A DNA stretch of 64,000 nt. Origin: an uncultured Fodinibius sp. Its GTDB lineage: Bacteria; Bacteroidota; Rhodothermia; Balneolales; Balneolaceae. Every line of letters begins with the position of its first letter. The first letter of the stretch is position 1. The stretch lies in assembly GCA_913057775.1 (NCBI GenBank), contig CAJXOG010000001.1, forward strand, positions 372,001 to 436,000, given 5' to 3'. Below the pieces are notes generated by a model. The model did not search any database, was not told the DNA's origin, and saw nothing but the letters and a program-made list of their open reading frames with translations. The position numbers were made by a program, and so were the translations under genes. Shown here piece after piece: positions 19,662 through 26,496 of the stretch.

Positions 19662-20171
19662 ATGGCTCATCCGGCAAGTGAAGAAACAATTGATTTAGTT
19701 AAAGAAATTTTCAGCTCATATCTAAAGGAGCACAATCAGCGGCAAACACCCGAGCGCTTCATGGTCCTCGAAGAAATTTACCGGGCCGACGGTCACTTTG
19801 ATGCCGATGATATCTTCTTCAATATGAAAGAAGGCGGTACCCGAGTTTCCCGGGCAACGGTATATAATACTCTTGACCTTTTAGTAGAATGCGGATTAGT
19901 CCAGCGCCAGCAGTTTGGTGAAAATCAATACTATTATGAGCGTGCTTATGCTTACCAACAGCACGATCACATCATCTGTAAAAAATGCGGCACGGTCTTG
20001 GAGTTTTGCGATCCGCGTATTCAGGAGATCAAAACGATGATGGAGAAAATCCATAAGTTTAACATTACGGGGCATTCGCTCCACTTTTTTGGTACCTGCC
20101 AAGATACCGAAGCTTGCGAAAAGCGACAGCAAGAGCAAGTAGGTAAAAAGAAGTCAAAAGTTAACTCATAG
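19662..20171 (+). CDS. fur: Fur family transcriptional regulator
   Basis: 169 aa; RQTPERFMVLEEIYRADGHFDADDIF, SRATVYNTLDLLVECGLV, HDHIICKKCGTVLEF. Confidence 0.93.
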   Translation: MAHPASEETIDLVKEIFSSYLKEHNQRQTPERFMVLEEIYRADGHFDADDIFFNMKEGGTRVSRATVYNTLDLLVECGLVQRQQFGENQYYYERAYAYQQHDHIICKKCGTVLEFCDPRIQEIKTMMEKIHKFNITGHSLHFFGTCQDTEACEKRQQEQVGKKKSKVNS

Positions 20172-20194
20172 ACGCGTACGACCTTACTTCTTGA

Positions 20195-20686
20195 TTGATG
20201 ATTACCCGTGCCAAGCCTGCACATCTCAAAGACATAAATGACATCTACAATCAGGCAGTAGCAGATGGATTACGTACGGCTCACACTCAGCCGGTTTCTC
20301 TAAAACAGCGCAGACAATGGCTCCAAAATCATCCCAAGAATACCCACCCTGTTTTTGTTTATCTGGATGATGATACCGTACTTGGCTGGCTTTCTGTCTC
20401 ACCTTACCGCTCTGACCGGCAAGCATTGAATGAAGTTGTTGAAATAAGCTACTATGTAGATTATGATCATCATGGAAAAGGGGTAGCTACAGATCTGATG
20501 AATCATGGCCTTGAATTTTGCAGAATCAACAGCTACCGAATTGCCGTTGCCATTTTAATTAGTGGAAATAAATCCAGTATTGCTCTCCTCGAAAAGTTTG
20601 ATTTTACCGAGGGTGGACGTATTCCGGATGCTCTCCATTTCGATGGTGAGTATCGAGATCATCTTTACATGTATAAAAAGCTGTAA
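20195..20686 (+). CDS. GNAT N-acetyltransferase (phosphinothricin acetyltransferase-like)
   Basis: 163 aa; ITRAKPAHLKDINDIYNQAV, VEISYYVDYDHHGKGVATDLM. Confidence 0.88.
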   Translation: MMITRAKPAHLKDINDIYNQAVADGLRTAHTQPVSLKQRRQWLQNHPKNTHPVFVYLDDDTVLGWLSVSPYRSDRQALNEVVEISYYVDYDHHGKGVATDLMNHGLEFCRINSYRIAVAILISGNKSSIALLEKFDFTEGGRIPDALHFDGEYRDHLYMYKKL

Positions 20687-20768
20687 GTTTTGATCTCCTT
20701 CCTTAAAGAATGACAGATAAGAATCCCTGAAAATAGATCCGTTTGTCAGATCAAAAAATTATTTCTTT

Positions 20769-20776
20769 TATATTTG
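20769..20776 (+). promoter_or_regulatory. Bacteroidota-type -7 box TATATTTG upstream of the RRM gene
   Basis: Exact TAnnTTTG in the intergenic region 75 nt upstream of the RRM ORF. Confidence 0.35.
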
Positions 20777-20851
20777 AAAACGTCGTAATATCATATTTGT
20801 GGGAGGTATTATAAGTCCTGCATTAACCTATAATAAACTGGTATTAGACGA

Positions 20852-21115
20852 ATGAATATTTACGTAGGAAACCTTTCCTTTAAGGTTTCAGATCAAGAAT
20901 TAATGGAAGTATTTGAAGAATTTGGTGATGTAACTTCTGCCAAGGTAATCAAGGACCGGGAAACCGGTCGCTCAAAAGGATTTGGTTTCGTAGAAATGGA
21001 AAATGATGACGAAGCCCAAACTGCTATCGATGAGCTTGATAGTTCCGAAATCAATGGCCGTACTGTTAAGGTGAACAAAGCGCGTCCCAAAGAAAAAGCC
21101 GGCAATCGACGATAA
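20852..21115 (+). CDS. RRM-domain RNA-binding protein
   Basis: 87 aa; MNIYVGNLSF (RNP2) and GRSKGFGFVEM (RNP1). Confidence 0.96.
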   Translation: MNIYVGNLSFKVSDQELMEVFEEFGDVTSAKVIKDRETGRSKGFGFVEMENDDEAQTAIDELDSSEINGRTVKVNKARPKEKAGNRR

Positions 21116-21137
21116 GTTTTACTTTTTGATTCATTAG

Positions 21138-21168
21138 AAAGCCCCGGAATTCTTTCCGGGGCTTTTTT
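21138..21168 (+). terminator. Intrinsic terminator of the RRM gene
   Basis: AAGCCCCGGAA-TTCT-TTCCGGGGCTT followed by a T run. Confidence 0.9.
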
Positions 21169-21228
21169 GCTTGGTTTGTATTTTTCTATCGACAAGAAAC
21201 TTTATATTGACACTTGGTATCTGTATGT

Positions 21229-21250
21229 TATATCATTATATAATGATATA
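21229..21250. promoter_or_regulatory. Perfect 22-nt palindrome, candidate ArsR operator
   Basis: TATATCATTATATAATGATATA, 10 nt before the ArsR start codon and downstream of a TTGACA at 21207-21212. Confidence 0.75.
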
Positions 21251-21260
21251 TTAATAGATT

Positions 21261-21626
21261 ATGGATACTGAGCAATTATTGCCCGATGAACAAGCCATTC
21301 GCATTAAAGCAAAATTGTTTCGCGGTTTTGCAGACCCCTCCAGGTTGATGCTCATTGAGGTGCTTCGCAACGGAAAGAAAAGTGTGGGAGAATTGGTAGA
21401 AATCACCGGACTTTCTCAACCAAATGTTTCTAATCACTTGCGTTGTCTTGCTGACTGCGACTTGGTTAAAAAAGAACGAGACGGGCGTTATATCTACTAT
21501 AGACTTAGTGATATGCGTATAACAACGATCCTGCAAAAATCTGAACAGCTTCTCTCAGAAGTTGCAAAAGGGGTGTACGATTGCACGCGATATGAATCAG
21601 CAAAAGAATTAGAAAATAATGAGTAA
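21261..21626 (+). CDS. ArsR/SmtB family metalloregulator
   Basis: 121 aa; KLFRGFADPSRLMLIEVLRNGKKSVGELVEITGLSQPNVSNHLRCLADCDLVKKERDGRYIYYRL. Confidence 0.93.
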   Translation: MDTEQLLPDEQAIRIKAKLFRGFADPSRLMLIEVLRNGKKSVGELVEITGLSQPNVSNHLRCLADCDLVKKERDGRYIYYRLSDMRITTILQKSEQLLSEVAKGVYDCTRYESAKELENNE

Positions 21627-23715
21627 GAAAGAAGTTCAACTCACGGTTAAAGGCATGGATTGCTCGGGCTGTGCCAAAAATGTAAAAAGTGCGCTCGAAC
21701 AACTTGAGGATGTAGAGTCTGCAGAAGTCTTTCTTTCAGCTGAAAAAGCTAAAATTCAAACAAAAACCGATCATCCTGACCTCCAGACCTTTAAAAAAGC
21801 TATACATGACATTGGCTATCATATCCCTGAAAAAGAAAATACTAAACAGGCCTCCGGCGAAATTTCGCTCAAAGAAAAAGCCCAAAAATCTTTCCGACTA
21901 TTCGGACTAGTTTTCGGGGCGATCCTGCTGGTTGTTATAGCCGGGGAATGGCTGGGACTTTTTCAGGCCTTAACACAGTGGGTCCCCTTCTGGGCAGGGG
22001 CCGCTCTCGTACTTTTAATGGGATATCCTGTATTTAAACAGGTTATCGTGGCTGCTAAAAAAGGATTGGTAACCCCACATGCTTTGATGGCTCTGGGATC
22101 ACTTACAGCTTTGGCAGCCGGGGAATGGGTTACAGCCGGCATTGTCGTATTTTTTATGCGTACCGGTGATTACATTGAAAACTATACCACCGAAAAAGCC
22201 CGGGATTCACTTCGTTCACTAACAAAGCTTGCCCCCCAAACAGCTACCGTTGTTCGAGATGGCTCCGAAAAAGAAATTCCCATCGATCAGGTAAAAAAAG
22301 GAGACCATATTTTAGTGCGTCCGGGGGGTAAAGTACCTGTAGATGGAACGGTAATTGACGGACAAGCCACCATCGACGAATCTCCCATTACCGGTGAATC
22401 AATGCCCGTCGAAAAAACGGAAGGATCCAGTGTTTTTGCATCCACCATAGCGCAGGGCGGATTTCTCACCTTACGAGCTGAAGCGATTGGAAGTGATACC
22501 ACTTTTGGTAAAATAATCAATATGGTGGAAGAGGCCGAATCAAAAAAAGGGGCTGTACAGCGTTACGCTGATAAATTCTCGGCCTGGTATCTGTCAGTAG
22601 TGACATTTATTGCCATATTAACTTACCTCATCAGCGGGGATCTTATGGCAACTGTTGCCGTTATGGTAGTGGCCTGTGCCTGCGCATTTGCTCTTGCTAC
22701 GCCCGTTGCCCTGTTGGCTTCGGTGGGATCCAATGCCAAACGCGGAGTACTCATTAAAGGTGGAAAATATATCGAAGCTCTTGCCCGGGCCGATATTTTA
22801 TTGATTGATAAAACTGGGACTCTCACTTTTGGCCGACCTGAAATATCAGAAATTATTCCACTTAACGGAATTACCGAGGGAGAATTACTCATCATGGCAG
22901 CCAGTGCTGAGCAATACTCTGATCACCCCATCGGCAAAGCCGTTGTTGAGGCTGCTCAGAAACGTCATCTGAATCTACAAAAACCCGATAACTTTAAAGA
23001 AATAACGTCAAGCGGAGTCCGTGCTATTTTTAAAGATTATACCGTGACTGTTGGTAATGAACGCTTACTTGAAAATGGCAAGCAAGATATCCATCCCACA
23101 GTAAACAAGATTAAAGAAGAAGGCAAAACAGCTATTATCGTACAAAAAGATGGGCTACCCATTGGAGTGCTTGCTGCCCAAGACACGGAACGTTCTGAGG
23201 CAGGTATTGCTCTTACCAATCTTCGAGAACAACATTCGTTTGGTGCTGTTGAGTTATTAACTGGAGATAATACCACAACCGCCCGCCATTTAGCAAATAA
23301 ATTAAATATCGATTTCAGAGCCGAATTATTACCTGAAGACAAAATTGATATTGTAAAAGAATATCAATCGAAGGGTCAAACGGTGGTGATGATCGGTGAT
23401 GGCGTCAATGATGCCCCTGCCCTTGCTCAAGCGGACGTAGGAATTGCCATGGGCACCACCGGTACCGATGTAGCAATTGAAACGGCTGATGTAACACTAA
23501 TGCGTGATGATTGGAACTTGGTGCCCCAGCTCTTTACATCCGCTGACAATACAATGAACATTATAAAGTGGAATTTCGGATTTACGACCGCTTATAATTT
23601 AGTGGGACTTTCACTCGCGGCGTTCGGCATTCTCCCTCCTGTTTTAGCCGCAGCGGCTCAGTCACTGCCGGATGTCGGGATATTGCTTAATTCATCACGA
23701 CTATTAACAAAATAA
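21619..23715 (+). CDS. Heavy-metal translocating P1B-type ATPase with atypical CAC transmembrane motif
   Basis: 698 aa; N-terminal HMA GMDCSGC, TGES, ACACAFALATP, DKTGTLT, SDHPIGKA, GDGVNDAPALAQADVGIAMG. Overlaps arsR by 8 nt. Confidence 0.95.
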   Translation: MSKKEVQLTVKGMDCSGCAKNVKSALEQLEDVESAEVFLSAEKAKIQTKTDHPDLQTFKKAIHDIGYHIPEKENTKQASGEISLKEKAQKSFRLFGLVFGAILLVVIAGEWLGLFQALTQWVPFWAGAALVLLMGYPVFKQVIVAAKKGLVTPHALMALGSLTALAAGEWVTAGIVVFFMRTGDYIENYTTEKARDSLRSLTKLAPQTATVVRDGSEKEIPIDQVKKGDHILVRPGGKVPVDGTVIDGQATIDESPITGESMPVEKTEGSSVFASTIAQGGFLTLRAEAIGSDTTFGKIINMVEEAESKKGAVQRYADKFSAWYLSVVTFIAILTYLISGDLMATVAVMVVACACAFALATPVALLASVGSNAKRGVLIKGGKYIEALARADILLIDKTGTLTFGRPEISEIIPLNGITEGELLIMAASAEQYSDHPIGKAVVEAAQKRHLNLQKPDNFKEITSSGVRAIFKDYTVTVGNERLLENGKQDIHPTVNKIKEEGKTAIIVQKDGLPIGVLAAQDTERSEAGIALTNLREQHSFGAVELLTGDNTTTARHLANKLNIDFRAELLPEDKIDIVKEYQSKGQTVVMIGDGVNDAPALAQADVGIAMGTTGTDVAIETADVTLMRDDWNLVPQLFTSADNTMNIIKWNFGFTTAYNLVGLSLAAFGILPPVLAAAAQSLPDVGILLNSSRLLTK

Positions 23716-23721
23716 GCTACC

Positions 23722-24336
23722 TTGGCCGACTCAACCATTAATCGCTACAATCGTGAGGCAAAAAAGTATGAGCAAAAATGGCATAAATATCTTGACCACA
23801 CGCACCGAATGCTGCTCAAACATATCGAACTTACCCCATCAGATGTCGTCTTAGATCCTAGCGGCGGTACGGGGTTACTTGCTAAAAAACTTATCGCCCA
23901 AAATTATTCTTTCGAACAGTTGGTAATTAATGACCCGTCCGATGAAATGCTTGCAATTGCCCGCCAGCGGCTGTCCGACAAGCCCTCAATTAGCTTTAAA
24001 AATAAGAAGGTTCAAGATCTCTCATATCCGAAGAATTATTTTACCAAAATTATCTGCCTGAATTCTTTTCATTTCTATGAAAAACAGGATCAGGTTTTGA
24101 GTCAGTTTTACAAACTCCTAAAACCGGCCGGGAAACTCTATATTCTTGATTGGAATCGAGAAGGATTCTTCAGGATTATCAATTCGCTAATACGATGGTC
24201 AAGCTCTGAATATATAAATACTCGTTCGCTTCGTGAGCTACAGCAGATGATGTCCGAAAATACATTTAATATTCAAACCTCTCACCGCTGGAACTGGCGG
24301 TACTGGAAGCTCATGTTTGTAGAAGGCGCTAAATAA
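23722..24336 (+). CDS. Class I SAM-dependent methyltransferase
   Basis: 204 aa, TTG start; VVLDPSGGTGLLAKKLI, FYKLLKPAGKLYILDWNREGF. Confidence 0.8.
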   Translation: MADSTINRYNREAKKYEQKWHKYLDHTHRMLLKHIELTPSDVVLDPSGGTGLLAKKLIAQNYSFEQLVINDPSDEMLAIARQRLSDKPSISFKNKKVQDLSYPKNYFTKIICLNSFHFYEKQDQVLSQFYKLLKPAGKLYILDWNREGFFRIINSLIRWSSSEYINTRSLRELQQMMSENTFNIQTSHRWNWRYWKLMFVEGAK

Positions 24337-24408
24337 AGAACAACTTGGTTCTGTTAAAATCGACCAATATCTTAAGCGAAAATTTGAACTTCAATTATTC
24401 AAACAACG

Positions 24409-25287
24409 ATGAAAACCTGCGCCTTTCTTTCTATGGATAACCTCGATGATTTTGAAGTATATGATCATCTTCTTTTCGAACCACTCAAAGAGCTGGGGTG
24501 GCATACTGAGGAGGTTTCCTGGCGTAGCGATGATGTAGATTGGGATAGTTATGATGCTGTCATTATTCGCAGTCCGTGGGATTATCAAAAAGAGCCCAAG
24601 GCTTTTTTAGATGTACTTGCTGAGATCGAACAGTCGGATGCCCTGCTCGAAAATAGTCTTGAAATCGTTAAATGGAATATTGATAAAACCTATCTCCGTG
24701 ATCTGGAATCCCGCGGCATTGAGATCGTCCCAAGCCAATGGTATCAAACCTTTAACTCAGATCTGTTTCCTTCTGTTTTTACGGACCTGGAATCCGAAGA
24801 GATCGTAATAAAACCTACTATCAGTGCCGGAGCGGATGATACTTTTCGTATTCACAAATCGAACTATGGCATTTTTGTTGATGATCTAGAATCCGTTTTC
24901 AAAGATCGTCCTTTTTTAGTGCAGCCCTTTATGGATAATATTACTATTGAAGGCGAATTTTCGGTCTTCTTTTTTGGAGATACCTATAGCCACACCATCC
25001 TCAAGACTCCCAAAACCAATGACTTTCGTGTGCAGGAAGAACACGGTGGCAAGTTAACACCGGTTGAACCGGAAGAAGATCTGTTGGAAGTTGCCCGCAA
25101 AATGCGTGATATGATTCAACCCGAGCCGCTCTATACACGTGCGGATTACGTCCGAACAGCAAAAAACACCTTTGCACTGATAGAACTCGAACTCATCGAG
25201 CCATCCCTCTACTTTAACATGGATCCAGAATCACCCAAACGATTTGCAAAAGTTTTTGACGAATGGATGAAAAAGAAATCAAACTAA
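24409..25287 (+). CDS. ATP-grasp domain protein (RimK/DcsG-like ligase fold)
   Basis: 292 aa; AVIIRSPWDYQK, EEIVIKPTISAGADDTFRI, PFMDNITIEGEFSVFFFG, LIELELIEPSLYFNMD. Confidence 0.85.
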   Translation: MKTCAFLSMDNLDDFEVYDHLLFEPLKELGWHTEEVSWRSDDVDWDSYDAVIIRSPWDYQKEPKAFLDVLAEIEQSDALLENSLEIVKWNIDKTYLRDLESRGIEIVPSQWYQTFNSDLFPSVFTDLESEEIVIKPTISAGADDTFRIHKSNYGIFVDDLESVFKDRPFLVQPFMDNITIEGEFSVFFFGDTYSHTILKTPKTNDFRVQEEHGGKLTPVEPEEDLLEVARKMRDMIQPEPLYTRADYVRTAKNTFALIELELIEPSLYFNMDPESPKRFAKVFDEWMKKKSN

Positions 25288-25297
25288 AATAAAATAG

Positions 25298-25324
25298 CAG
25301 TAGCATGGCATACCGCGCTACTGC
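25298..25324. terminator. Hairpin between convergent ATP-grasp and dnaJ genes
   Basis: GCAGTAGC / GCTACTGC, followed on the plus strand by CATCAGTTTTT. Confidence 0.6.
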
Positions 25325-25350
25325 CATCAGTTTTTACATCGGCCTTAAAA

Positions 25351-26496
25351 CTATGTAAACACATCTTTTATCTTAGAAAAGAATCCTTTGCCATCATCTT
25401 CTCTGTTTGATGCTTTAAAATGGTCATTGCCTCTTAGCGCTTCTACGTGCTCACGCTCTTCATCGGAAAGATCTTTTGGAATGTAAACATTCACTCTCAC
25501 ATATTGATCCCCAATACCTGAGCGGTTAAGTCCGTGAATGCCTTTTTCACTCATACGCAACAACTTGCCCGGCTGAATACCCGGTTCAATATTAATTTTC
25601 GCTTTGCCTTTAAGCGTCGGCACCTGCACTTCGGTCCCCAGAACAGCGTCGGGCACACTCAGCACCAGATCGTAATAAATGTCATTGCCGTCGCGCTCAA
25701 AATGCTCGTGCTCTTTCTCCTCGATTAATACAACCAATGATCCTGCTTCACCACCGCGTTTACCGGCATTCCCTTTGCCGCGCAGGGTTATATAATTGCC
25801 TTCAGATACGCCTGATGGAACATTTACCTTCACGGTTTTTTCACCTCGATAGCGCCCTTCGCCATGACATTTTGAGCATTTATTGCGGATAATACGACCT
25901 TCGCCACGGCATTCGGGGCACGGTTGTACATTTACCATTTGGCCGAGCATTGTTTTGCGAACCTGGCGCACTTCCCCGGTTCCATTACAGGTACCACACA
26001 TTTCAAAATCTTCTTCCGATTCTGCACCGGTACCATTACACTCATCACATTTGATCTGCTTTTTGACCTTTAACTTCTTCTCAGTGCCAAAAGCAATCTC
26101 TTCAAGCGACAACTCGATGCGCAATTTCATATCCGAACCGGGCTGTCCCGATGAACGACGTCCGCGCGAACGACTGCGACCGCCACCAAAGTCACCACCA
26201 AAAATATCGCTGAAGCGACTAAAAATATCCTCAAAGCCAATATCCTCGAAACCGGCAGCACCGCCACCACCGTTTACACCGCGATGGCCAAATTGATCGT
26301 ACCGCTGACGTTTTTGTTCATCCCCCAATACTTCATAGGCTTCCGAGGCTTCCTTGAATTTCCGTTCTGCTTCCGGATCATCAGAGTTACGATCCGGATG
26401 AAATTTCATCGCTTTCTTGCGGTAGGCCTTTTTAATTTCATCCTCAGATGCATTTTTGCTTACGCCGAGTACGTCGTAATAGTCTAATTTAGACAT
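25351..26496 (-). CDS. dnaJ: Chaperone DnaJ
   Basis: 381 aa; J domain with HPDRN, G/F region, four CxxCxGxG zinc motifs. Confidence 0.98.

Follow-up and report, generated by a model that had tools for sequence, protein, structure and literature searches.

A P1B-type metal ATPase with CAC in place of CPC belongs to a distinct CxC clade and is a probable exporter of soft divalent metal ions

The M4 proline is regarded as the defining structural feature through which P-type ATPases open their ion site, and one class of P1B pumps, P1B-7, was reportedly defined by Smith et al. in 2014 through a CSC motif. In P-type ATPases generally, M4 is broken by one or more prolines (PMC10654040). P1B-7 itself has no known substrate (PMC7558416) and was biochemically unexamined in 2016 (PMC4932525). 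The other described systems that bear on the present case are P1B-1, exemplified by E. coli CopA (CopA structures 3RFU, 7R0G), P1B-2, exemplified by E. coli ZntA (PDB 4UMV/4UMW), the TPC pump Nia of S. meliloti in P1B-5, and CtpG of M. bovis, a Zn2+ exporter controlled by CmtR (PMC9045314), a regulator whose cysteines are numbered 57, 61 and 102 (PMC7863910).

An open reading frame at 21619-23715 on the forward strand of the window, by which we mean the whole 64,000-nucleotide stretch of DNA analyzed, starts with ATG and encodes 698 amino acids with zero internal stops. Its source is a salt-loving bacterium, an uncultured Fodinibius sp. of the Balneolaceae. The product scores 579.5 bits (cutoff 346.25) against TIGR01525, the model for heavy-metal P-type ATPases, and profile searches recover E1-E2 ATPase and hydrolase domains and a single HMA domain, whose N-terminal metal-binding motif GMDCSGC (residues 12-18, 21652-21672; PF00403) shares GMDC with E. 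coli ZntA, E. coli CopA having GMSC. Alignment with the CxC clade described below, CopA and ZntA confirms that DKTGT (the phosphorylation motif with Asp397, 22807-22821), TGES, HP and GDGVNDAP are all intact, as the first-pass annotation of this DNA had read them, and by the catalytic motifs (DKTGT, TGE, HP, GDGxNDxP) together with TIGR01525 the protein is a P1B-ATPase. A Foldseek search with its predicted structure likewise ranks P1B structures first (ATP7B, CopA, ZntA). The cadmium model TIGR01512 outscores the copper model TIGR01511 (457.5 versus 434 bits), an order also seen in the pumps L043 and L071.

The codons TGT GCC TGC (22675-22683) encode Cys353-Ala354-Cys355 within MVVACACAFALATP, and when the protein is aligned to E. 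coli CopA (ACPCALGLATP) and ZntA (GCPCALVISTP), which requires no gaps, Ala354 falls on the CPC proline, in agreement with the initial reading of CAC at the CPC/CPH/SPC position. Hence, the pump lacks the central M4 proline (CPx or xPC) used as a P1B criterion, with CAC here and CSC elsewhere in its clade. The second M4 proline, Pro362 of the ATP motif (22702-22704), is kept and is invariant in alignments A1 and A3. In M5 the copper-pump-like Tyr659-Asn660 (YN, 23593-23598) is invariant across the CxC clade, and in M6, with the register set against CopA and ZntA, Gln681-Ser-Leu-Pro684-Asp685 (QSLPD, 23659-23673) places Q681, P684 and D685 in the M, S and S columns of CopA; the retention of YN and the replacement of MxxSS, both remarked on at first sight, are thus correct.

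The CAC form is carried by five genomes of the same family, listed within the Balneolaceae as L001/L013 (L001 being an Aliifodinibius MAG of the same genus as the source genome), L005 (the source's own), L014, L015 and L016, the last with a pump 70% identical to that of the source. CSC is found in about 20 relatives with 50-68% identity, namely L017 and L018 in the Balneolaceae, L042-L047 and L080-L086 in other families of the class, a Desulfobacterota-type genome (L079, a Desulfonauticus MAG), and plasmids of the proteobacterial and actinobacterial hosts Shinella, Diaphorobacter, Streptomyces and Mycobacteroides (51-55% identity), on which the NCBI label is only 'cation-translocating P-type ATPase'. 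The occurrence is patchy: within the class, 19 of the 245 genomes have a CxC pump, in the phylum around L002 one of 297 (L079) has it, in the phylum around L004 a search of 300 genomes at E <= 1e-150, run with no positive control, recovered no clade member, and a viral-contig scan with the clade alignment returned zero members. Two viral-contig CPC pumps (L098:119-1918 and L100:788-2725), with ALVHNAGSV and ALVHNFGSV in M6, form a separate long-stem clade that fits no listed P1B class. In Shinella sp. HZN7 pShin-10 (L074) and S. zoogloeoides p2 (L182) the CSC pump gene is split over two frames; near-identical Shinella plasmids have it open, and the split is a frameshift or an assembly difference. 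In two Balneolaceae genomes, at L175 (12645-17470) and L176 (2990-5649), the CxC pump is part of a metal-resistance island that also encodes a CPH copper-type ATPase, and the L175 island contains genes for DUF411 and DUF302 proteins, an ArsP-type permease and a cytochrome c as well.

In trees comprising CopA, ZntA, CPC, CPH, SPC, CPG, TPC and APC pumps along with the CxC pumps, the latter are monophyletic, with 100/100 support when the M4 and M6 regions are masked and with an SH-aLRT of 100 in two further trees. The clade falls outside P1B-1, P1B-2 and P1B-4. In one of the two further trees, midpoint-rooted for drawing only, it also lies outside the group holding the ZntA-like, SPC and CPG rows, and a starred branch divides it from the P1B-1 (Cu) rows. 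The present pump shares both this monophyly and the signatures C[SA]C, FTxxYN and [QH]SxPD. The suggestion that CAC might mark a distinct clade therefore holds for the robust CxC clade as a whole, but not for CAC itself: most members have CSC, and the CAC pumps are a small subset derived from among them. The CAC/CSC split costs one change on the tree, which rules out CAC as a clade of its own. Judged from this topology, CSC is ancestral, and CAC arose within it later through one Ser-to-Ala replacement.

Clade membership of the Vibrio campbellii plasmid pump L073 (3998-6094, forward strand, NZ_CP092684.1), with CSC in M4 and INEGAALIVIANGLRLL in M6, was rejected by the AU test (p = 0.0002); nearby on this plasmid are genes for an ArsR-family protein and a rifampin ADP-ribosyltransferase. 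The grouping of two GAC pumps, L049:1501-3456 (reverse strand) and L093:794-2791 (forward strand), with no M4 proline and with HVGSE and HVSSE respectively in M6, with the CxC clade was not rejected (AU p = 0.47), and this lineage is possibly sister to the CxC clade, sharing its proline loss. The M4 proline had been called essentially invariant, and in a mixed set of 55 rows its conservation is indeed 90% or higher; however, the sequences indicate its loss from one or more lineages besides the CxC clade, with L073 independent. As the proline has been lost at least twice, 'invariant' is too strong a term, and its absence from L049, L093 and L073 as well makes the central M4 proline a poor P1B-defining feature.

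The M6 residues can be compared across classes at positions N-10 and N-7,N-6, numbered backward from the conserved Asn of this helix. Copper pumps have M/SS here, most ZntA-like pumps D/AT, most SPC pumps H/ST, the CxC clade Q or H/PD, TPC (P1B-5) pumps Q/ID, and GAC and CtpG-like APC pumps H/SE. The CxC acid thus has the register of the TPC and CtpG-like APC pumps and lies one helix turn off the ZntA Asp, with Asn replacing the M5 Lys. Across 18 diverse CxC members Cys353, Cys355, Pro362, Tyr659-Asn660, Ser682, Pro684, Asp685 and Asn691 are invariant, and position 681 is Q or H. In an AlphaFold2 model of the pump (pLDDT 89, 55 rows) M4 is unwound at 352-354, and in that of the CPC control L004 (pLDDT 92) at the equivalent place, 345-347. 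The modeled M4 break would be compatible with the missing proline; most alignment rows carry the proline, and the break may be inherited from them. The Wilson disease mutation P992L might suggest that a pump suffers when the CPC proline is lost, but it does not bear on this point: with C983/C985 as the M4 cysteines of ATP7B (PDB title), P992 corresponds to the second M4 proline.

The pump gene overlaps by 8 bp the gene for a CmtR-like ArsR/SmtB metalloregulator (21261-21626, forward strand; NF033788 above cutoff). Upstream, the edge is set by the intrinsic terminator of the preceding RRM gene (21136-21167, forward strand; 14-bp stem and T tract), whose inverted repeat is present in four genus members. 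A promoter-like element, TTGACA-18-TATCAT (21207-21236, forward strand), is a consensus match only, at 11 of 12 positions, its -35 not being conserved among relatives and its second hexamer lying within a perfect 22-bp palindrome, TATATCATTATATAATGATATA (21229-21250), that precedes arsR. This palindrome, the likely ArsR operator, is kept in three congeners (L001, L014, L015) and is the sole such site in the 3.1-Mb genome; because it has no second genomic copy even when up to 3 mismatches are allowed, its simplest reading is that of a dedicated local operator. The only cysteines of the ArsR protein are Cys62, Cys66 and Cys108, and it aligns with CmtR (2jsc) across HLxCLxxC with the Cys62/Cys66 pair matched. 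With these it has, at like spacing, the counterpart of Cys57, Cys61 and Cys102 of CmtR, which we take to be the sensory triad of a Cd(II)/Pb(II) sensor, and the triad recurs in the ArsR partners of a second family's CxC pumps (L043-L046). The curated CmtR model NF047906 scores 60.2 bits against a cutoff of 150 and is outscored by the TsoR model, and the regulator, as far as its sequence tells, is CmtR-like but below a curated CmtR assignment. Downstream, a class I SAM methyltransferase gene (23722-24336, forward strand; PF13649/PF08241), with an uncertain TTG start, is the probable third gene of the operon and adjoins the pump in L001, L013-L015 and L017. Next to the operon, in each of the four genus members that were checked, is an ATP-grasp gene (24409-25287), whose product resembles the D-cycloserine synthetase DcsG but scores 170 bits against a cutoff of 360. 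An Rfam scan of 20000-26000 found no RNA element.

Taken together, we consider it probable that this gene encodes a working P1B efflux ATPase of a distinct CxC subfamily, most likely exporting Cd2+ and/or Pb2+, and Zn2+, from the cytoplasm. A soft divalent ion is favored by the tree position, the M6 acid, the GMDCxxC motif of the HMA domain and the CmtR-like regulator, as well as by the higher score of the cadmium model over the copper model. Contextual information points the same way: the MerR regulators beside four plasmid homologues have Cys in the column of CueR Ser77, as in ZntR, none of the source genome's other four P1B pumps (two CPC, one CPH and one CPG) is ZntA-like (CPC plus Asp), CmtR controls a Zn2+ exporter in the case of CtpG, and the family f9 homologue L172 comes after ZnuA/ABC/ABC-3 metal-uptake genes. 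Against the Cd/Pb/Zn reading count the M5 YN, a copper-pump feature, copper-type neighbors on the Shinella and Diaphorobacter plasmids, and the model scores, the ArsR falling below the curated CmtR cutoff and the plasmid MerR proteins below all metal-specific cutoffs. In the proposed mechanism the metal would arrive from the HMA domain or from thiols and bind at Cys353, Cys355 and the M6 carboxylate of Asp685, with Gln/His681 and Asn660 close by; despite the missing proline, M4 would be unwound over Ala352-Ala354 in the manner of CPC pumps, and phosphorylation of Asp397 and the E1/E2 cycle would bring about release outside. The CmtR-like ArsR on the palindrome at 21229-21250 would repress its own operon, with metal at Cys62/Cys66/Cys108 leading to derepression.

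The reading that survives best among the alternatives is an unusual Cu+/Ag+ exporter, in which the cysteines and YN would serve monovalent copper in the way known from P1B-1, the Asp of M6 having a structural role. This accords with the invariance of YN across the CxC clade, with the PCu(A)C, SCO and CopZ-like genes beside the plasmid homologues of Shinella and Diaphorobacter, and with the CPH copper-type pump genes about 2-6 kb off in L175 and L176. Nevertheless, we regard it as unlikely: the pump lies outside P1B-1 in the tree, has QxxPD in place of MxxSS, is associated with regulator cysteines of the CmtR or divalent-MerR type, and occurs in a genome that already has CPC and CPH copper-type pumps. 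The hint of a copper-type pump initially drawn from YN is thus outweighed by the phylogeny, the M6 carboxylate, the HMA motif and the CmtR-like regulator. Next in order, and judged improbable, is an exporter of another divalent ion, such as Ni2+, Co2+, Fe2+ or Mn2+, on account of the resemblance of the M6 Q...D to that of P1B-5 Nia. Q at N-10 and D at N-6 are found in three TPC rows, one of them the TPC pump of S. meliloti pSymA, the substrates of Nia are Ni2+ and Fe2+ (PMC4932525), and the uptake genes ahead of the relative L172 are of the ZnuA type (Zn or Mn); yet two M4 thiolate ligands favor softer metals, the regulator is of the CmtR-like three-Cys kind, and the C-terminal hemerythrin-like extension of the TPC protein is absent.

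Loss of transport along with the M4 proline, leaving a metal-sensing or degraded ATPase, is very unlikely: M4 of P-type ATPases is described as proline-broken (PMC10654040) and an absent proline could block its unwinding, but 18 diverse members show no variation at any catalytic residue or at the rest of the site, the genus has a dN/dS of about 0.05-0.08, intact genes are found on several plasmids, the predicted M4 break is kept and Pro362 is retained. Conserved catalysis, purifying selection, operon structure and a clade-wide odd site all favor the first-pass view of a probably active pump with a non-canonical site. A sequencing or assembly error can be dismissed, even though one base would suffice to turn CSC (TCC) or CPC (CCC) into CAC (GCC), since GCC recurs in five separate genomes, one of them with a 70% identical pump, and CSC is found in every other clade member.

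There is about an even chance that a whole P1B subfamily moves metal without a proline between the M4 cysteines, M4 being unwound otherwise, perhaps via the relocated M6 Pro684-Asp685, giving an undescribed geometry. This geometry, C-x-C plus Asp with no Lys and with Q/H and YN, is described for no characterized P1B class, and if the reading is true the CAC pumps would require neither the proline nor a serine hydroxyl at the middle M4 position. A natural proline-less clade, with one branch bearing alanine, would allow a direct test of the role of the proline in selectivity and transport. The CxC clade may be the uncharacterized class P1B-7; CAC would then be a variant within that class, and the proposed metal would be the first substrate assigned to a group for which reviews list none. 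Our literature searches found no text stating a CAC or CSC motif for a P1B class and no experiment on any CxC-clade member, and accordingly CAC did not emerge as an already characterized subclass with a known substrate.

Among the characterized classes, P1B-1 resembles the pump in the M4 C-x-C, the M5 YN and the overall fold, but of its defining features only YN is present, CPC being replaced by CAC and MxxSS by QxxPD, with placement on the other side of the tree. With P1B-5 only the M6 register is common (Gln at N-10, Asp at N-6), whereas Nia has TPC in M4 and a long C-terminal extension, and the two form separate starred clades. The mycobacterial CtpG/CmtR system, set against the pump by description, similarly combines a CmtR-type ArsR in an operon with a P1B pump bearing an M6 acid (HEFTE; PMC9045314), but has APC, with one Cys and the proline kept, versus CAC, and HEFTE versus QSLPD. 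P1B-2 differs in having the CPC proline, the M5 Lys where the pump has YN, and the M6 DxG(x7)N, the pump having its Asp (D685) one helix turn further along with Q/H at the ZntA Asp position and falling outside the P1B-2 rows. Nevertheless, the pump shares with P1B-2 the P1B architecture, a GMDCxxC HMA domain, two M4 Cys, one M6 Asp and, probably, divalent substrates.
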